Assembly (NCBI GenBank): GCA_947479085.1 | Contig: CANJYB010000004.1 | Location: 62,001-126,000 of the forward strand | Reading direction: 5' to 3' | Length of the DNA stretch: 64,000 nucleotides | Origin: Bacteroidota bacterium | GTDB lineage: Bacteria > Bacteroidota > Bacteroidia > 2-12-FULL-35-15 | Shown here: positions 187-57,710 of the stretch, piece by piece | How the letters are laid out: each line of letters opens with the position of its first letter | How positions within the stretch are numbered: the first letter of the stretch is position 1 | Position numbers and translations under genes: made by a program | Notes under the pieces: generated by a model | What the model was told of the DNA's origin: nothing | The model's database searches: none | Seen by the model: the letters and a program-made list of their open reading frames with translations, nothing else

Positions 187-375
187 GTGGAATTTCTCCG
201 AAAAGATGTGGAAACCTTCTGCAACCTTGAGGAAACTATTCACAGTAATGTGGAACTATTCCACTTTATTGCGGAAACTTTCCGAAAAGATGGGGAACCT
301 TTCCACAAGGCTGAGGAACCTTTTCTTAAGACTGTGGAACTTTTCCACAGTCATGCAGAACACAATAAAATGAAC
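187..375. repeat. Array A: 21-nt degenerate tandem repeat, 8 full units plus a partial one
   Basis: Units start at 187, 208, 229, 250, 271, 292, 313 and 334, all exactly 21 nt, followed by a decaying ninth copy at 355. Each begins G-N-G-G-A-A and most contain a dyad (GTGGAA-CTA-TTCCAC in unit 4, GTGGAA-CTT-TTCCAC in unit 8). Units 1-4 resemble units 5-8 in order (for example CCGAAAAGAT closes units 1 and 5, and GAGG opens units 3 and 7), which implies an 84-nt higher-order duplication. Two forward frames stay open across it because the period is divisible by three; I do not call a gene. It ends 55-65 nt before the gene at 430. Confidence 0.9.
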
Positions 376-429: not shown

Positions 430-1122
430 ATGACAGAAAAACGAGTAGTACCTCAAGCTATTGATCCGTTCAATAGTTACATTTTGGTTGTATTAAGCTA
501 TTTAACCGCCAATGCATCCCGTTTATTAATTACCACAGGCAATATAACCGCCCTGAACGACCTGGTAACCAATGCCACCACCGGCTGGACGCATTGGTAC
601 ACCTTGCATGCCAACGCAGCCACCCGTACATCGGTTATTAACGCTAACCTTGCCGACAGCGAAACTGCGATTACCCAAAAACTGCAATCTATTTATGGCG
701 ATTTGCCCCGCAGTTTGATGACCAATGAAGATTATCAAACCCTCCACATTTCGCCACCGGTAACCCATCGCGCCAAAAGGGCTAAGATTACAAACATTCC
801 GTTTTCCAAGGTATATTCAGTAGGAGGTGCCATTGTTAAGTTCATTATTCGTACCGATACACATGCTAAACGTGCAGCCATCGACCCATTGGCAGATGCT
901 GTGGAAGTGGTGGCTGTTCTGTTGTCTATCGATAAACCATTGCCCACCGACCCAAGCGAGTGCAATCTTCATTTTATCAGTAAAGAGGCCCTGTTTGGCC
1001 ATGCGTTTACACCTGCCGATGCAGGAATGAGGTTTGCCTGTTTTATCCGTTTTGTAAATTTAACTGACGAAAGCAAGGATGGCGGCTGGAGTGGAGTTAT
1101 TTCCTGCATTGTGGGGATGTAA
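430..1122 (+). CDS. Hypothetical protein, array-linked family member 1 (230 aa)
   Basis: I do not recognise a named family. The protein has no signal peptide or membrane segment, so it is probably cytoplasmic. An N-terminal helical half carries the motif ANASRL at residues 27-32; a C-terminal probably beta-rich half has FTPADAGMRFACFIRF followed by a GGWSGVI stretch. The protein from 41720-42391 has ANASRL at 26-31 and an equivalently placed FTEDQIGKIAYVAVCF with GDGNYSDII, so the two look like divergent paralogues. Both genes directly follow a 21-nt-period repeat array in the same orientation. A terminator follows at 1148. Expression is plausible; function is unknown. Confidence 0.75.
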   Translation: MTEKRVVPQAIDPFNSYILVVLSYLTANASRLLITTGNITALNDLVTNATTGWTHWYTLHANAATRTSVINANLADSETAITQKLQSIYGDLPRSLMTNEDYQTLHISPPVTHRAKRAKITNIPFSKVYSVGGAIVKFIIRTDTHAKRAAIDPLADAVEVVAVLLSIDKPLPTDPSECNLHFISKEALFGHAFTPADAGMRFACFIRFVNLTDESKDGGWSGVISCIVGM

Positions 1123-18406: not shown

Positions 18407-18434
18407 CTTCACTTTCTCCTACTTTCTTTCAATC

Positions 18435-18808
18435 TTCCTATCCTTTCTCTCCATCTTCCCATACTTTATTTCCACTTTCCTATACTTTTTTCAAATTTTC
18501 CTATCCTTTTCGGCAATTCTTCCCTAAGATTTTGATTTTTTCCCAGAAGATTTTGCTTTTTTTCTAGAAGATTTTCATTTTTTCCCAGAAGATTTTGAAA
18601 TTTTCCCAGAAGATTTCCGTTTTTTCCTAGAAGATTTCGATTTTTTCCTAGAAGATTTCGGAAAAAGTATAGGAAGATTTGAAAAAAGTATGGGAAAGTG
18701 AGGAAAAAGGTTAGGGTTTTTGAAAATAAGGTAGGGGTTTTTGAAAAAAAGTATAGGAAGATTATAAAAAAGGTTAGGAAGAAAGGAAAAAAGTATGGGA
18801 ATTTAAAG
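18435..18808. repeat. Array B: 21-nt repeats with an inverted right arm
   Basis: Eleven units start every 21 nt from 18435 to 18645. The first four carry TTCCTATCC or TTCCTATAC cores; the next seven carry TTCCCAGAAGATTTT or TTCCTAGAAGATTT. From about 18660 the motif flips: AAAAAGTATAGGAAG and AAAAAAGTATGGGAA units, spaced 19-23 nt, are the reverse complement of the left-arm units. The locus could fold into a long imperfect hairpin with the AGAAGATTT units in the loop. The irregular spacing on the right breaks reading frames. Confidence 0.85.
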
Positions 18809-26447: not shown

Positions 26448-26617
26448 GATTGCTTTCAATCGTTCAATAAATCGCTAGTCATTTTGTAGGGAGTTTGAAT
26501 TTTACAAAATTAAATAGCATTCGTTCTTTCTTTTCTTTAAACCATTTCGAAAAAAATGGAACTTGAATTTAGTTTCAGGTTAAGTTTCTTTCGGGAAACA
26601 CAATTTGTTCGAAGGAA

Positions 26618-26935
26618 CAAGTGACCTATTTTTTTCCAGACGTAGGTTGACAGGTCTGGCAAGTGAACTATTTTTTTCCAGACATGGGTTGACAGGTCTG
26701 ACAAGTGAACTATTTTTTTCCAGACGTAGGTTGACAGGTCTGACAAGTGACCTATTTTTTTCCAGACGTAGGTTGACAGGTCTGGCAAGTGAACTATTTT
26801 TTTCCAGACATGGGTTGACAGGTCTGACAAGTGAACTATTTTTTTCCAGACGTAGGTTGTCCGTTCTGACAAGTGACCTATTTTTTTCCAGACATAGGTT
26901 GGCAGTTCTCACAAGTGACCTATTTTTTTCCAGTC
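26618..26935. repeat. Array C: 42-nt (2 x 21) tandem repeat, 7.5 units, with 126-nt higher order
   Basis: Units start at 26618, 26660, 26702, 26744, 26786, 26828 and 26870, all exactly 42 nt, with a half unit from 26912. Each contains CAAGTGAMCTATTTTTTT and CCAGAC...GTCTGG, a 6-bp dyad. Units 1-3 differ from each other (GACC/CGTAGG, GAAC/CATGGG, GAAC/CGTAGG) and units 4-6 repeat that order, a 126-nt duplication. The last two units are the most diverged. A 184-codon forward frame crosses it but is not called. Confidence 0.95.
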
Positions 26936-41073: not shown

Positions 41074-41312
41074 GGGACAAAAAAACTCCTTTTGTTTTTA
41101 CCTCATAAACTTCTATAACTATTGTATTTACTTATTTACAGAAGTTCAACCTCCCTATTTTAAAAATTCAATTTTCAGACCTCATCGTTAAAAATCGTAT
41201 ATGATTTTAACTGTAAATTTGCGCAAGCAAAAATTGGGAAACCGATTGGATGCCAAAAACAAGTTCTTTAAAATTTCTGAAAATCGCTTAAAAAAAACCG
41301 CAAACCCAATAT

Positions 41313-41583
41313 TTGAACTTTTGGTGTTAAAGTTTGAATGTTTGGTGTTAGAGTTTCAAACTTTGGTGTCAAATTTTACAATTTGAAATGAATGTTTCAA
41401 ACTTTGGTGTTAAAGTATGAATGTTTGGTGTTAAAGTTTGAAACTTTGGTGTGAAAGCACTGAACTTTGATGCGAAAGTTTGAAACTTAAGTGTGGAATA
41501 TTACAGTTTGAAATGAATGTTTGAAACTTTGGTGTTAAAGTTTGAAAGTTTGAAGCGAAAGTTTGAAACTTTAGAACGAAAGA
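41313..41583. repeat. Array D: 13 units of 21 nt (two of 20 nt)
   Basis: Units start at 41313, 41334, 41355, 41376, 41396, 41417, 41438, 41459, 41480, 41501, 41521, 41542 and 41563. The core is TTGAAACTTTGGTGTTAAAG; AAACTTT and AAAGTTT form a 7-bp dyad across unit junctions. The units at 41376 and 41501 are 20 nt and nearly identical, 125 nt apart, implying a six-unit higher-order duplication. The 20-nt units shift frame, arguing against coding. It ends 137 nt before the paralogue at 41720. Confidence 0.93.
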
Positions 41584-41719
41584 ATGAAATATAAGGTTTT
41601 TAGGAATAATTGCTCAAATACAAGTAGTTATCTTTTGAAAAAAGTAAAATTAACTTGGAAAGAAGGGAAACACCAGGAATTGTAAATCAAAAATCGTAAA
41701 CCAATTAAAACTAAATAAT

Positions 41720-42391
41720 ATGATAAACTACAGTAAAACCATCGTTTTTTACAATATTTACTTCGGCATTATGGTGCCTTATGCAATTATTCCGGCAAAC
41801 GCAAGTCGTCTTGGATTGACTGCACAACAAGTTACAGATTTAACTAATTATCTTGCGTTATGGAATCCGGCTTATGCCAATTACATTTCACCATTAACTT
41901 ATGGGAGGCTAACAACTGCCCAGGTGAATGCACTTTGGAAAGCATATAAAAGATATACTGACGGGATTAAACAGCAACTGAAGAATAACCCGGCTCTAAC
42001 TCTTTCGGAATTGGAATATATCATATTTGATATTCATAGAGATGCGCCTGCAAGAGGGCACATTCCTGCTCCGACACAGGAGGCGGGTATTTCGGAAAAA
42101 GCAATCAATCATTTGAATAATGAATATCACGCGTTTGATTTGGCAAATCCGACAAAAGCAGGTAAGCCAAAAGATGTGAAGCGAATAAAAATTAAATATA
42201 TTGTTCTCGATGCGTCAGCCACTCCTCCAGCACTGGAGATGCTTACCGAAGAGCTGGAAAGCGGTGCCATGAATTTTGACATTCCTTTTACAGAAGACCA
42301 GATTGGTAAAATTGCTTATGTGGCTGTATGTTTCAGCAACGATAGCGGTGATGGTAATTATTCAGATATTATTGCCACTCCTATTATATAA
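41720..42391 (+). CDS. Hypothetical protein, array-linked family member 2 (223 aa)
   Basis: A divergent paralogue of the protein at 430-1122: ANASRLGLTAQQVTDL at 26-41 aligns with ANASRLLITTGNITAL at 27-42, and the C-terminal FTEDQIGKIAYVAVCFSN aligns with FTPADAGMRFACFIRFVN. Both have a helical N-half and probable beta-rich C-half, no signal peptide, and lie directly downstream of a 21-nt array on the same strand. MINYSKTIVFYN could be replaced by a later Met, as Met18 is also in frame. Function unknown. Confidence 0.75.
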   Translation: MINYSKTIVFYNIYFGIMVPYAIIPANASRLGLTAQQVTDLTNYLALWNPAYANYISPLTYGRLTTAQVNALWKAYKRYTDGIKQQLKNNPALTLSELEYIIFDIHRDAPARGHIPAPTQEAGISEKAINHLNNEYHAFDLANPTKAGKPKDVKRIKIKYIVLDASATPPALEMLTEELESGAMNFDIPFTEDQIGKIAYVAVCFSNDSGDGNYSDIIATPII

Positions 42392-51792: not shown

Positions 51793-51800
51793 TACTTTTG
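51793..51800 (+). promoter_or_regulatory. -7 box TACTTTTG for mfd
   Basis: An exact TAnnTTTG match. It overlaps the in-frame TTG at 51798, ruling that out as the start. The -33 region would lie inside the preceding terminator stem. Confidence 0.6.
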
Positions 51801-51818
51801 TGTTCCTTTTTGAGATAC

Positions 51819-54800
51819 GTGACGAAAGAAGACATTTTACGTAGAACCGGTGATGCATCTAACAATACTCTGCTGACAGAGGAATTGAAGGGGGATGGTG
51901 CGCGCGTTCAATTAAAAGGAGTAATAGGCTCCGGTTCTTCTTTCATTGCCGCTGCCGCCTGGCAGCACCTTCACAAAACCAGTTTAATCATTCTTGCAGA
52001 TAAAGAAGAAGCGGCTTATTTTCTAAATGACCTGGAAAATATAATAGGGGAAGAAAATGTATTGTTCTTTCCTGCTTCTTATCGCATGCCTTATGAACAT
52101 GAGAACATAGACAATGCAAATATTTTGCTCAGGGCAGAAGTACTGAATAAAATAAATACCGGGAAAAAGCATATATGTATTGTTACTTATCCTGAAGCAT
52201 TAACAGAGAAAGTAGTAACCAAGACCCACCTGACCAGTAATACACTTTCATTGAAACAAGGTGAGAAAATTTCGATTGACTTTATCACTGATGTTTTAAA
52301 TGAATATGAATTTACAAGGGTGGACTATGTGGTGGAGCCAGGGCAATTCTCTGTGCGTGGAGGGATCGTGGATATTTTTTCTTTTGCAAATGATAATCCT
52401 TACCGGCTGGAGTTTTTAGGCAATGATGTGGACTCCATTCGTAGCTTTGATTCGGTTACACAATTGTCGATTCAGAAACTTACTTACTGCACCATTATTC
52501 CGAATGTGCAAACGAAGCTGTTGCAGGAAAGCAGGCAGACTTTTTTTGAATTTATTCCTGAAAATTCTGCCATCTGGTTCCGGCATTTTCAACTGACGGT
52601 GGACAGAATTGAAAAAGCATTTGAACAAGCCGAAACATCTTATGCTGCTTTGGATGCTGTGATTAAACAACTGGAACCAGCAGAACTTTATATTGATAAA
52701 GATACTTTTACCAAACAGGTTTTGGGATTTCCTGTGGTGGAGTTTGGGAATCATTTTTCACTGAGCCCGACTAAAACAATTACTTATAATTATTCTCCTC
52801 AGCCAAGCTTTAATAAAAACTTTACATACCTCAACGATAACTTTAAAAGCAATATCCGCAATGGATTGACCAATGTTATTTTTTCGGATACACCAAAACA
52901 AATAGAACGACTATATAAAATATTTGAAGACATTTCTCCTAAAAAATCGGAAGAGCCGGAATTGTTTACTCCCATACTTCTTTCTATTCATGAGGGTTTT
53001 ATTGATAACGAATTAAAAATAGCCTGTTATACCGACCACCAGATATTTGACCGGTATCATCGATTTAGATTAAAAAACAGTTTTAATAAAACCAACGAAG
53101 CACTTACTTTAAAAGAGCTGAAAGGTCTGAATCCGGGAGATTATATTACACACATTGATTACGGGGTGGGTCGTTACGGAGGATTGGAAACCATTGAAGT
53201 AAACGGTAAAACCCAGGAGACCATCAGGCTGGTATATAAAGATTATGATGTGGTGAATATCAGCATACATTCACTTCATCGCATAGCGAAATACTCCGGA
53301 AAGGAAGGTACAGAGCCAAAGATAAATAAACTGGGCACTGCTACCTGGGCAACGCTGAAACAAAAAACAAAAAAGAAAGTAAAAGAAATTGCGTTCGATT
53401 TAATTCAACTTTATGCCAAACGAAAAGCGTTGAAAGGGTTTAAATTCAGTCCGGATAATTATTTGCAAAATGAACTGGAAGCCTCTTTTATATACGAAGA
53501 TACGCCTGACCAAGTGAAAGCAACTGCTGATGTTAAAAAAGACATGGAAAGCGAATACCCAATGGACAGACTTATTTGTGGAGATGTTGGTTTTGGCAAA
53601 ACAGAAGTGGCTATTCGTGCGGCATTTAAAGGAGTATGCGACAGTAAGCAGGTTGCCATACTTGTACCTACCACTATACTTGCCCTGCAACATTATAAAA
53701 CTTTTAAAGACCGATTAAAAGATTTGCCTTGCACGGTGGATTACATTAACCGGTATAAATCATCGAAACAACAAAAGGAAACGCTGGAGAAAGTGGAGCA
53801 GGGAAAGGTGGATATACTTATAGGAACGCATGGTATAGTGGGGAAGGGTGTAAAGTTTAAAGATCTTGGATTAATTATTATTGATGAAGAACAAAAATTT
53901 GGCGTAGGAGTAAAGGATAAATTGAAAACGATAAAAACAAATGTGGATACATTAACCCTTACTGCTACTCCTATTCCGCGAACGTTACAATTTTCGATGA
54001 TGGGGGCAAGGGATTTATCCGTTATCAGTACTCCACCACCGAACCGCTACCCGGTGCAGACAGAGCTGCATACCTATAATGAAGAAATAATTCGTGATGC
54101 GGTGACATTTGAAGTATCAAGGGGCGGGCAGGTGTTTTTTATTCATAACCGGGTGCAGAATATTATGGAAGTGGCCGGAATGATTTCGCGATTATGCCCA
54201 GATGTGAAAGTAGCAATAGGACATGGACAGCTGGAAGGAGATAAGCTGGAGGAAGTAATGCTTGGGTTTGTGGAAGGGGAATATGATGTGCTGGTGGCAA
54301 CTACAATTATCGAATCGGGATTGGATATTTCGAATGCGAATACTATTATTATTAATAATGCACAGATGTTCGGGTTGAGTGATTTGCACCAAATGAGAGG
54401 GAGAGTGGGCCGTTCGAATAAAAAGGCATTTTGTTATTTGCTTACTACTCCCGTTTCGCTGTTAACTAATGAAGCGCGTAAGAGATTAAAAGCTATTGAA
54501 GAGTTCTCAGACCTTGGAAGTGGTTTTAACATTGCAATGCGCGACCTTGACATTCGCGGAGCAGGAAACTTACTGGGCGGAGAACAGAGCGGATTTATTA
54601 ATGAAATAGGTTTTGAAATGTATCAGAAGATACTGGACGAAGCGATAATGGAATTAAGAAATGAGCATGAGGAACTGGCATTGACAGATGTGGGAGGTAC
54701 TCAACGATTTACCCAAAAGCAGCATAGCAAGTACATTACGGACTGTGTGATAGATACTGACATGGAAATTTTAATTCCGGATGAGTATGTAAATAATATT

Positions 54801-55187
54801 ACGGAACGATTAAATTTATACCGGGAACTGGATGATTCGAAAAGCGAAACCCAACTTGTAAATTTCGAAATGCATCTTACCGACCGATTTGGGCCTGTAC
54901 CTCCTCAGGCCATCGAACTGATTCATACCATCCGCCTGAGGTGGCTGGCAATGGAAATTGGTTTCGAAAAACTTTACCTGAAAAATAACCGCATGACGGG
55001 ATACTTTATTCCTAAGCAAGATTCGCCTTATTATCAAAGCGAAACATTTACCAAAGTATTAAAGTATGTGCAGCAGAATTCCCGCATCTGCAAAATGAAG
55101 GAGAACAATGGAAAACTTACCCTTTCGTTCGAAAACATTAAGTCGGTGGATGACGCGATTAATGTTTTAAAGCCTGTTGCAGCATAA
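51819..55187 (+). CDS. mfd: Transcription-repair coupling factor Mfd (1122 aa)
   Basis: Removes stalled RNA polymerase at DNA lesions and recruits UvrA. A UvrB-like N-part, a CarD-like RNA polymerase interaction domain (GDYITHIDYGVGRYGGLE), a RecG-like motor with GDVGFGKTEVAIRA (Walker A) and IIDEEQKFGVG, TATPIPRTLQFSMMGARDLS, and a TRCF C-terminal domain are all present in order. The GTG at 51819 (MTKEDILRR) is preferred; a TTG at 51810 is possible. Either start implies a leader shorter than about 15 nt. Confidence 0.95.
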   Translation: MTKEDILRRTGDASNNTLLTEELKGDGARVQLKGVIGSGSSFIAAAAWQHLHKTSLIILADKEEAAYFLNDLENIIGEENVLFFPASYRMPYEHENIDNANILLRAEVLNKINTGKKHICIVTYPEALTEKVVTKTHLTSNTLSLKQGEKISIDFITDVLNEYEFTRVDYVVEPGQFSVRGGIVDIFSFANDNPYRLEFLGNDVDSIRSFDSVTQLSIQKLTYCTIIPNVQTKLLQESRQTFFEFIPENSAIWFRHFQLTVDRIEKAFEQAETSYAALDAVIKQLEPAELYIDKDTFTKQVLGFPVVEFGNHFSLSPTKTITYNYSPQPSFNKNFTYLNDNFKSNIRNGLTNVIFSDTPKQIERLYKIFEDISPKKSEEPELFTPILLSIHEGFIDNELKIACYTDHQIFDRYHRFRLKNSFNKTNEALTLKELKGLNPGDYITHIDYGVGRYGGLETIEVNGKTQETIRLVYKDYDVVNISIHSLHRIAKYSGKEGTEPKINKLGTATWATLKQKTKKKVKEIAFDLIQLYAKRKALKGFKFSPDNYLQNELEASFIYEDTPDQVKATADVKKDMESEYPMDRLICGDVGFGKTEVAIRAAFKGVCDSKQVAILVPTTILALQHYKTFKDRLKDLPCTVDYINRYKSSKQQKETLEKVEQGKVDILIGTHGIVGKGVKFKDLGLIIIDEEQKFGVGVKDKLKTIKTNVDTLTLTATPIPRTLQFSMMGARDLSVISTPPPNRYPVQTELHTYNEEIIRDAVTFEVSRGGQVFFIHNRVQNIMEVAGMISRLCPDVKVAIGHGQLEGDKLEEVMLGFVEGEYDVLVATTIIESGLDISNANTIIINNAQMFGLSDLHQMRGRVGRSNKKAFCYLLTTPVSLLTNEARKRLKAIEEFSDLGSGFNIAMRDLDIRGAGNLLGGEQSGFINEIGFEMYQKILDEAIMELRNEHEELALTDVGGTQRFTQKQHSKYITDCVIDTDMEILIPDEYVNNITERLNLYRELDDSKSETQLVNFEMHLTDRFGPVPPQAIELIHTIRLRWLAMEIGFEKLYLKNNRMTGYFIPKQDSPYYQSETFTKVLKYVQQNSRICKMKENNGKLTLSFENIKSVDDAINVLKPVAA

Positions 55188-55497
55188 AAATATATTTACC
55201 AGAAAAGTACTACCCAACAAGTTTTACTTGTTTTTATTGATTATTCCCGCTTTTAATATTATTTGAAGCACAAAATGAAGTAAGGAAGAAAATAATTTTT
55301 CCTGCTATGTACGCGTTCATCCAAAAAGTGTACGCGTTCGTCCACAAACCCATCTGATTTCTTGACAGTGATATTTAACCTAACCCCGAAAATGGTTCCT
55401 GAAACCACCTATTTTATTTTGGTGGGATAGCATTTAATTTTTGTTTAATTTGTTGACCTTGAATACTTAAGTAATTATTTGTGCAAATAATGCATAT
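55188..55497. other. Intergenic region between mfd and array E
   Basis: This holds array G and is otherwise AT-rich, with no gene, tRNA or clear terminator that I can support. Confidence 0.45.
55309..55350. repeat. Array G: two 21-nt units with GTACGCGTTC core
   Basis: GTACGCGTTCATCCA at 55309 and GTACGCGTTCGTCCA at 55330 are exactly 21 nt apart. ACGCGT is itself palindromic. It is only 148 bp from array E but shares no motif with it. Confidence 0.6.
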
Positions 55498-55770
55498 ATT
55501 ACAGTTGAATTAAGAGCTAATACAGTGGAAACCAGAACTAATACAACCGTATGAAGACCTAATACAGTTATATAAAGAGTTAATACAGTTGTATGAAGTG
55601 CTAATACAACTGTATAAAGACTTAATGCTGTTGTATAAGGAGCTAATACAGTTTTATGAAGAGCTAATACAGTTGTATAAACGACAAATATAGTTGGTGG
55701 AAGACCAAATACAATTGAATGAGGAGCAAATACAATTGAATAAATAGCAAAACCAGTTGTATAAAGTGCT
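55498..55770. repeat. Array E: 13 units of exactly 21 nt, AATACAGTTGTAT core
   Basis: Units start every 21 nt from 55498 to 55750. Most read AATACAGTTGTAT followed by AAAGAGCT or GAAGAGCT; ATAC and GTAT form a small dyad. The unit at 55603 has AATACAACTGTAT, the inverted version of its neighbour's core. TATGAAG and TATAAAG endings alternate in places, suggesting an older 42-nt dimer. Edge units are the most diverged. The reverse strand has a 130-codon open frame of hydrophobic heptads, not called as a gene. Confidence 0.95.
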
Positions 55771-56160
55771 GTTTTTAGGGTGTATTTTGAGACTTTTTTG
55801 GGCAAAAACCCCAATAATAGCAATTCGGGAGTAAACTGCACGTCAAGTGAAGGTGGCAAGATTAATTAAATAACTGTGAGGATAAAGAAAGTATAAATTA
55901 AGGGAGGATGGGTGCATAAAGAATAGATTAAATTTGAGCGTTATTTCCTACGAAACCTCTGCCCTGGCCGCTCTCCTTGAATCCCGAATAACCCGGGACT
56001 TAGTTCGGAGAGGGGAGCCAAAGCATAAAATCCAATGTTTCATTAGGTGTTTTGCGTGGTAGTCCCTTTGTTTTATTAAAAAATGAAAAAGATTAAGGTT
56101 GTCGTATTCTAACATCAATTCTAATTCATTTTGGTTATTCAAAATGTTTAATAATTACCT
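55771..56160. other. Intergenic region between array E and the outer-membrane protein gene
   Basis: It holds a GCTCTCCTT...GGAGAGGGGAGCC repeat at about 55953-56022 with an internal CCCG...CGGG dyad, related to those at 29557 and 34182. No gene is supported; a reverse 64-codon frame over the repeat looks accidental. Confidence 0.45.
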
Positions 56161-56168
56161 TAGCTTTG
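56161..56168 (+). promoter_or_regulatory. -7 box TAGCTTTG for the 56232 gene
   Basis: An exact TAnnTTTG match, about 60 nt before the start. Confidence 0.5.
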
Positions 56169-56231
56169 TAAATAAAAAGTAGACAGATAGTTTTTGGACT
56201 CTTTAGTTCTTATTAAAAACAGGTTAAGGTT

Positions 56232-57074
56232 TTGAATAAAAGGAAATTTCTTCAGATTGTTTTTTTGTTAAGCTTTTTTATAAGCTATGGACAAACGGAT
56301 ACTTTGGTTACGAGAAAAAATAACAAAGTGATTATTTCGATTTCAGGGGGAGTAGCAATACCATCTGGTGTATTCAGAGAATATGAAAAGACCACTGCCT
56401 TAACTAATCAAGCTATTAATATAGCCGGAGGCGCAAAAGTAGGGTATTACGGAAAGTTTGAAATTAAGTATTTGTTTTCAAAGCATACCGGAGTTATAGG
56501 GATGCTCTATTCTTCCATAAATAAAGCGAGCTCTCCCAAAGAATTTGAGTTGTTTTACGAACAACCAGAATCAGTGCCAGCTTTAGGAGGAGGTTATTAC
56601 AGACATTTAAACAATTACGATATTACAAACTGGAAAACCTTTGGCTTACTCACAGGAATGTACCGAGCAGAAAGATTTTATTTTCTAAATTTTAATTTCA
56701 AGTTATCAGTAGGAATTCAAGGTGTTAAAAGCCCTGAAACTAAGGTTGATGAAAATGATGCGGTTAGATGGGGAGGTTCAATTTCCTCAACAAACACAAC
56801 ACAAACATTTCAACCAAGCATAACTAGTTACAACTTTATGGCAAATGTCGGAATTGATATTAGTTTAAATATATCGAAACGATTCCGATTTAAAATAGGA
56901 TGGGATGAATTTGTTTCACAAGCATTATTTAAAGGTAATCAAACATCAGTTTCAGATTATATCTATAATTATAATGGTACTTCAGAACATAAAGAAACAG
57001 AACAAAATGTTGCTTTCTCAAAGAATATTTATTTGACCTGCTTTAATGCAGGTTTAAGCTATGTGATTAAATAA
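56232..57074 (+). CDS. Outer-membrane beta-barrel protein (280 aa)
   Basis: A signal peptide (1-20, ISYGQ) is followed by alternating strands rich in Gly and aromatics (GGVAIPSGVF, AGGAKVGYYGKFEIKYLFS, LNISKRFRFKIGWDEFV, all in part) and a final strand CFNAGLSYVIK. It looks like an OmpW/PorT-size small barrel with long loops. No specific role is visible. It converges on the cytochrome-like gene with no gap. Confidence 0.75.
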   Translation: MNKRKFLQIVFLLSFFISYGQTDTLVTRKNNKVIISISGGVAIPSGVFREYEKTTALTNQAINIAGGAKVGYYGKFEIKYLFSKHTGVIGMLYSSINKASSPKEFELFYEQPESVPALGGGYYRHLNNYDITNWKTFGLLTGMYRAERFYFLNFNFKLSVGIQGVKSPETKVDENDAVRWGGSISSTNTTQTFQPSITSYNFMANVGIDISLNISKRFRFKIGWDEFVSQALFKGNQTSVSDYIYNYNGTSEHKETEQNVAFSKNIYLTCFNAGLSYVIK

Positions 57075-57710
57075 CTAATTATCAGGGTATCCTGCACTAA
57101 TCCATTTTCCTATAGCTATGACATCGCAGGGTGCAAGTGCGCTAGTGTTTTTTGGCATTGGTGAATAACCAGCTGCATGTTGGAGGCTTCCAAGTAATTT
57201 ATTTCCAGTAATGGAATTTACAACTCCTGTATAAGTTGATAAATCATATCCTCCGGAACTATTGGTGGCGCTGTGACAACCGATGCACCAGGCATCTATA
57301 ATTACTTTGACCCTGTTATTGAAAGAGAAATTTGTGGTGTCGCAGGATTTGCAATTAGAGGTATTGTTTGCACCCATGTTTATCCATATTTTAATAATGT
57401 TGACCTGTTTGGTAGTAAGTTTAGGGTAAGGACTTCTTGGCATAGAAGGATTGTTGCCATTGATGGTGGTGAATGCTTCACTTTGTAAAGGATGATTTGG
57501 TTTTACCGCTTTTCTTATTCCATCATAGTTGGAAAAATCAAATCCCGCTTCATGTTCCTGTGTACTGTGACATTCGGGCATTGCGCAGTTTGTAATAAAA
57601 ATGGGTAAAACATCTTCCTGAAAACAAACATCAGGATTATAAACTGTTTTGGAGCAAGTTGTGAGCAAAGTAGCAACTCCAGCCAATGTTATTATTAAAT
57701 ATCTTTTCAT
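57075..57710 (-). CDS. Cytochrome c-like lipoprotein with CX4CH and CXXCH motifs (211 aa)
   Basis: A lipoprotein signal (LLTTC, Cys about 19) places it in the periplasmic or outer-membrane leaflet. Two half-repeats follow: the first has CAMPECH (CX4CH) after a QEDVLPIFITNC stretch, the second has CIGCH (CXXCH) after VKVIIDAWC. Each is followed by a GYDLS/GFDFSNY-type segment, as in planctomycete-type cytochrome c domains. Methionines after each (SMPRSPYPK, SPMPKN) could be axial ligands. The CX4CH spacing is unusual for haem c. Confidence 0.75.
   Translation of the reverse strand: MKRYLIITLAGVATLLTTCSKTVYNPDVCFQEDVLPIFITNCAMPECHSTQEHEAGFDFSNYDGIRKAVKPNHPLQSEAFTTINGNNPSMPRSPYPKLTTKQVNIIKIWINMGANNTSNCKSCDTTNFSFNNRVKVIIDAWCIGCHSATNSSGGYDLSTYTGVVNSITGNKLLGSLQHAAGYSPMPKNTSALAPCDVIAIGKWISAGYPDN

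Follow-up and report, generated by a model that had tools for sequence, protein, structure and literature searches.

The window analysed here is a 64,000-nucleotide stretch of contig CANJYB010000004.1 from a Bacteroidota bacterium (assembly GCA_947479085.1). It contains a tandem repeat, array E, that starts 310 bp after the stop codon of mfd and is followed by an ORF of 280 aa (Table 1). Every unit of the array matches the consensus AATACAGTTGTATAAAGAGCT at 14–19 of 21 positions, compared with only 4–8 for the flanking 21-mers, and the self-identity of the array at lag 21 is 0.71, against a maximum of 0.39 among 2000 shuffles. A preliminary description had reported thirteen units of exactly 21 nt despite extensive substitution, and this is borne out: read in one register, the array has 51 differences from the consensus, about 50 substitutions, and zero net indel. 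The one unit said to have an inverted core is also present, at 55603 (core AATACAACTGTAT), and is joined by a second AC-centred unit at 55540 (AATACAACCGTAT). One frame is open through the array, within a minus-strand ORF (55467–55859).

Table 1 Features of the window, in order of position. FamB is one of the array-associated gene families described in the text.
Feature	Position	Strand	Remarks
Another array of the class, 21-bp units (L208)	273..349	+	
FamB-like gene	430..1122	+	230 aa; 81 bp after array 273..349
Another array of the class, unit TTTGAAACTTTGGTGTGAAAG (L192)	41312..41589	+	
FamB gene	41720..42391	+	223 aa; 131 bp after array 41312..41589
mfd (transcription-repair coupling factor)	51798..55187	+	Pfam TRCF, UvrB_inter, CarD_TRCF_RID
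Two 21-bp direct repeats (TGTACGCGTTCRTCC.AAAAAG)	55308..55348	+	Immediately before the -33 box, a position they also have in FamB promoters
TTGACAGTG, -33 element of FamB-type promoter	55362..55370	+	
Array E, 13 units x 21 bp	55498..55770	+	Core ATACA-RY-TGTAT plus 9-bp spacer
280-aa ORF downstream of array E	56232..57074	+	Without Pfam match; outside the array-associated families

As a peculiarity of array E, a length kept more strictly than the sequence does not stand. Across 19 other arrays of the genome there are 792 substitutions and 31 non-unit steps, with 13 of the 19 arrays free of any step, and 22 of the 31 steps are the 20/22 alternation of a single 42-bp array (L093:3019–3560). 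At the sister-array rate of 9 per 649, with L093 left out, the probability of no indel in array E is 0.49, and with L093 included in the rate it is 0.14; because the value against sister arrays is about one half, the zero indels of array E alone are unremarkable. The fixed length is striking only across the whole class of arrays, and for the class the claim holds: unrelated 21-bp units recur in the own genome, among its genus relatives and in two further families. Exactly 21 is the value of 270 of 308 spacings (a count that still takes in a few 19-period arrays), and the deviating spacings are mostly 19, 20, 22 or 25 rather than 18 or 24.

The class was surveyed with Tandem Repeats Finder in the window plus 20 stretches of its own genome (464 kb), where 21-based periods (21, 42, 63 and 126) account for 27 of 37 non-coding tandem arrays of at least 60 bp and the unit sequences of these arrays are mostly unrelated to one another. 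This sample has 5.5 arrays per 100 kb and relatives bearing the associated gene families have 3.9, compared with 0.23 and 0.93 per 100 kb in genomes without FamB. The density count leaves out six stretches of a set of 20 (L128, L129, L133, L134, L141 and L142), which had been picked for E-like hits; the five from genomes without FamB were tallied with those genomes. L207, a duplicate of L191, was removed before counting, and L029 and L260 contain one and the same array. Two more 21-bp arrays of the window (18420–18801) lie upstream of an ordinary gene, tryptophan 2,3-dioxygenase-like by Pfam, and a 42/126-bp array with 91–95% identity (26617–26933) lies between two large ORFs. Arrays of the CCCACTGAGTGGG type occur at five places in the genome (L076:13879–14303 and, in G000, C30, C9, C1:118254 and C8) and are followed by a conserved 3' flank of 114–210 bp, as if array and flank were dispersed. 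A different repeat class, with heptamer-based arrays of period 7 and 22, precedes an mreB-like gene in one of the genus relatives that lack FamB (L015:18079–18534). The search for a common flank motif gave only weak k-mers, of which AGCGTAAA occurs in 7 of 92 flanks and 1 of 500 background windows, which is not significant after correction; GGGGTGYTTTT, considered as a general array-flank motif, is not general.

Relatives of array E were searched for in 36 genus genomes as a pair of ATACANNTGTAT cores at a distance of 21 bp, allowing up to one mismatch. The pattern was found in five genomes, as eight arrays (one each in G000, G012 and G021, two in G025 and three in G033), and the reversed pattern gave zero matches in the 36. 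Three of the eight arrays are followed, after 88, 102 and 165 bp, by the start codons of genes for homologues of one protein of approximately 221 aa, here called FamA. FamA has 14 matches in 7 of the 36 genomes, the close ones (57–63%) coming from precisely those four other genomes that carry E-type arrays, and 10 of the 14 loci have an upstream 21-bp array, often of unrelated sequence. No FamA gene was found in the own genome, which gave two weak matches only, the better one coinciding with a gene of a further family, FamC.

The genes beside arrays in the own genome led to FamB (19 matches) and FamC (17 matches). Under a strict criterion, a 21-bp array lies within 700 bp upstream of 26 of 35 FamB and FamC genes compared with 18 of 347 other genes of the genome, and downstream of 2 of 35 and 17 of 347, respectively. 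These families were found through array-adjacent genes, and a second count that removes eight seed or first-noticed genes gives 18 of 27 family genes with an upstream array (p = 1e-14). The FamB profile has matches in 7 of 295 genomes of the class Bacteroidia, and an upstream 21-bp array is present at 19 of 21 FamB loci in other genomes (3/3 in family f71, 1/2 in family f16); of the two misses, one locus lies at the edge of a contig and the second (L231) has a predicted protein that starts with 7-residue repeats, the array apparently being read into it. Arrays are linked to such genes in three families of Bacteroidia. Within the genus, FamB is either absent or present in 5–19 copies, the latter in 8 of the 36 genomes, and FamC has 12–30 copies in the same eight genomes and 1–7 in six others (G001, G002, G006, G027, G030 and G034). 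Across 469 pairs, the similarity of units hardly tracks protein identity (rho 0.08, p 0.09): proteins that are 70–90% identical often have unrelated units, in one pair with 89% identity and a chance-level unit match, and a few pairs, such as L193 and L244, do share units. Strict co-variation of protein and array was not found among these pairs.

The Bacteroidetes promoter motif consists of TTG, 17–23 bp and TAnnTTTG. In 49 array-bearing cassettes the promoter comes first, in many cases followed by a boxA-like motif, then the array, in some a GC hairpin, and last the start codon, and the arrays end 48–603 bp before the start codon. Of the 49 regions, 23 have TAnnTTTG upstream of the array (7.7 expected), 10 have the full promoter motif (0.9 expected) and 12 have GTTCTTTGAA, a boxA-like motif of the kind known from rRNA leaders, with at most one mismatch on the sense strand, against 0 on the antisense strand (0.6 expected). 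Only these minorities of leaders carry an exact TAnnTTTG (23 of 49) or the boxA-like motif (12 of 49), nearly all in FamB, and paralogue leaders are not independent. Within 150 bp there are 17 sense and 2 antisense occurrences of TAnnTTTG, and between array and start codon it is not enriched (6 of 49 regions, 4.0 expected). Eleven of the 49 regions have a GC-rich hairpin between the array and the start codon (0.5 expected; seven are CCCG...CGGG), and a T-run follows the hairpin in only 2 of 49. Given this order of parts, the array probably lies within a transcribed leader. The L193 leader, which belongs to FamB gene G000:C2:132391, repeats its promoter-leader block in tandem with a 158-bp period, which places several promoters in a row.

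Array E has such upstream DNA: 55308–55400 aligns with the FamB promoters in the leaders of L200 and L193. The promoter repeats at 55308–55348, as those of L193 and L200, contain GCGTTCGTCC, which resembles the AlgR/LytTR site. The array E leader lacks both the -7 TACTTTTG present in L193 and L200 and the boxA-like motif present in L193, and there is no sense TAnnTTTG in 55188–55800. Neither a family gene nor a remnant of one was found in 55181–57100, and the genus loci read within 1.5 kb downstream of mfd have no 21-bp array, save a two-copy repeat in L101. FamB-type upstream DNA without the -7 box, combined with the lack of a family gene, makes array E best read as a stranded leader, probably the decayed, gene-less remnant of a leader cassette. 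However, its arms match ATACA..TGTAT at 86%, compared with 78–92% in arrays beside FamA genes, and are hence no more decayed than theirs, which does not fit simple decay. The presence of a FamA-type array behind a FamB-type promoter suggests that arrays move between cassettes.

The preliminary description had further proposed that the inverted core preserves a dyad and that symmetric recognition matters more than sequence direction. In the 89 units of the eight E-family arrays from five species, the arms carry 1.0–1.8 bits per column and the spacer 0.02–0.65. The centres are AC in 39 units, GT in 24, AT in 22, GC in 0 and others in 4, giving a Fisher value of 1e-8 for the A/G by T/C table if the units, which are kin, are treated as unrelated. 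AC and GT centres are one DNA site seen from opposite strands, which supports the proposal. The arms pair no more often than expected from column frequencies, and compensatory change was not found in the family, so recognition of DNA half-sites fits better than an RNA stem. Symmetric recognition is thus supported by the unit sequences of the E family, and in array E itself conservation of the arms exceeds that of the spacer only moderately (pairwise identity 0.75 compared with 0.63, with two other rotations of the mask scoring about equally). Across the array class it is supported only weakly and does not hold as a rule: dyad symmetry reaches p < 0.05 in 9 of 48 other arrays and is significant in aggregate only (combined p 1.5e-6), and the dyad was dropped as a defining feature of the class. 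The fold energy of the 48 arrays has no strand bias.

For FamA and FamB, Pfam, NCBIfam and PADLOC gave nothing beyond chance-like matches. The C-terminus of the FamC profile matches FN3 domains of known structure (best E 1.5e-12, titin), and 4 of 17 FamC members match Pfam fn3 weakly. Compared as profiles, FamA and FamC can be aligned along 183 columns (probability 84), whereas FamB shares at most the C-terminus with either, at low probability. The AlphaFold model of the FamB protein in the window is poor (mean pLDDT 48). Phage, plasmid, PADLOC and Rfam searches gave nothing useful, and one FamA protein matches two tail-protein PHROGs at 6e-4 and 1e-3. Among the array-adjacent proteins scanned there is no replication-initiator or partition domain and no cas gene.

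We propose, and would give an even chance to, a reading in which array E is an orphaned, promoter-dead leader array of a common cassette type whose units, bound in phase, tune transcription of the leader. It starts from the observed association of arrays and genes, the order of parts, the recurrence in other families and the fixed length. A working cassette would comprise a promoter, often a boxA-like antitermination motif, the 21-bp array, sometimes a GC-rich hairpin, and a gene of approximately 200–300 codons for an uncharacterised protein that ends in FN3 in FamC and probably in similar sequence in FamA and FamB. Each unit would span two turns of the DNA helix, placing all units on one side, where a dimeric protein may bind them in a row, through the dyad where present. 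Such row-wise binding would tune transcription across the long leader, and boxA would assist polymerase in getting through it. Gain and loss of whole 21-bp units would keep the sites in phase, and other lengths would be selected against. The encoded protein is unlikely to be a strict sequence-specific binder of the units, a role for which it is a poor candidate because unit sequence changes faster than the protein. More tentatively, and just short of even, we suggest an undescribed system of Bacteroidia: multigene families of small helical FN3-tailed proteins in which every working copy has a leader array of two-helical-turn units, whose register and position are selected while the sequence is free, is swapped or rewritten and may act as a private address per paralogue, with array E as a stranded copy. 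No description of such cassettes was found in the open-access literature, subscription papers and preprints being outside the search.

The main rival, which we regard as unlikely, is a type III toxin–antitoxin-like RNA module in which repeated RNA units are bound or processed by the downstream protein. Units of type III systems measure approximately 34–48 nt and form an RNA pseudoknot. The units studied here are approximately 21 bp rather than 34–48 nt, there are up to approximately 25 of them instead of 3–5.6, and the proteins are FN3-tailed or unrelated, with the unit not tied to protein sequence. BoxA-like motifs would suit a long untranslated RNA, and tandem repeats do lie between promoter and ORF, statistically over the 49 cassettes, but searches of Pfam, NCBIfam and PADLOC returned no match like the endoribonuclease ToxN. 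An RNA module is also hard to reconcile with near-identical proteins that have unrelated units (the pair at 89% identity), with fold energies free of sense-strand bias and E arms without covariation, and with the scarcity of T-runs after the hairpin. According to PMC8860590, the order of parts in ToxIN (promoter, tandem repeats after the -10, hairpin, ORF) is the one seen in the cassettes, and type III loci (ToxIN, AbiQ, CptIN and TenpIN) likewise combine a promoter, a private array that differs between loci, a hairpin and a protein gene.

Quite unlikely, too, is that the arrays are neutral minisatellites, with slippage biased to two helical turns and the gene link marking where slippage-prone DNA is tolerated. 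Mostly unrelated unit sequences, an array turnover faster than gene turnover and higher-order periods (42, 63 and 126) that show ongoing duplication all agree with neutrality. It would leave open why arrays are enriched upstream and not downstream, at particular gene families and again in other families of the class, why they are nearly absent in genus mates without FamB, and why the E-family arms are conserved over five species relative to a free spacer.

We consider it very unlikely that the arrays are operators for LytTR-type regulators, which bind short direct repeats approximately 12 bp apart with a period near 21 bp. A gene for a LytTR protein (L128:16851–17708, Pfam E 1.4e-8) does adjoin a G033 array of the E family. 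Scored with the 9-bp LytTR consensus, the units of family arrays have exact matches in 6 of 48 (1.0 expected), but matches at 8 of 9 positions or better are near chance (25 of 48, 19 expected), exact matches occur in 2 of 42 other arrays (1.1 expected) and in 0 of 7 in FamA plus E, and the motif is not enriched in array units as a whole. Known LytTR sites are, moreover, pairs upstream of the promoter and not long arrays downstream of it. PMC6193735 describes repeats separated by 12 bp, with low conservation of sequence and high conservation of spacing, and the operators resemble the present arrays in a spacing near 21 bp with variable sequence. Finally, a coding role, in which each unit would specify seven residues of a protein repeat (21 being 7 codons), as the one open frame of array E and the L231 protein might suggest, is disfavoured as highly improbable, given that L129 and L141 of the E family and 7 of 35 family arrays of at least 120 bp have no open frame. 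The deviating spacings, mostly 19, 20, 22 or 25 rather than 18 or 24, likewise show that the constant length is not accounted for by a reading frame.

Other known systems share single features with the cassettes. In boxA-led CRISPR arrays a boxA-like antitermination motif precedes a transcribed repeat array; here the units are head-to-tail, without the unique spacers of CRISPR. Plasmid iteron and centromere arrays are helically phased direct repeats of approximately 20 bp beside one gene, whereas no replication or partition protein was found beside the arrays studied here and the families have no plasmid matches. REP and GTAG- and CGTC-tagged palindromes are short dispersed extragenic palindromes; in contrast, the present arrays are tandem, have a fixed 21-bp period and are tied to particular genes, and no common GTAG or CGTC tag was seen in them by eye. 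The TAACTGA heptamer repeats of Beggiatoaceae, Cyanobacteria and some Bacteroidetes are, according to PMC4679880, also intergenic, upstream of genes and patchy, but they have one shared 7-bp sequence, often beside the start codon, compared with differing sequences of 21 bp here.

If the proposed reading is right, unit length and not sequence would be the inherited feature of a regulatory DNA element, one tied to large orphan protein families that are all-or-none among close relatives (8 of 36 genomes). The arrays would then provide a concrete setting in which to study why a repeat period settles at two helical turns, by what route arrays appear and replace one another upstream of genes, and which functions the untouched families serve. 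A possible fourth array-linked family is represented by L074:335–1246 and L080:13540–14442, with proteins of approximately 300 aa and 25% identity over 116 aa.
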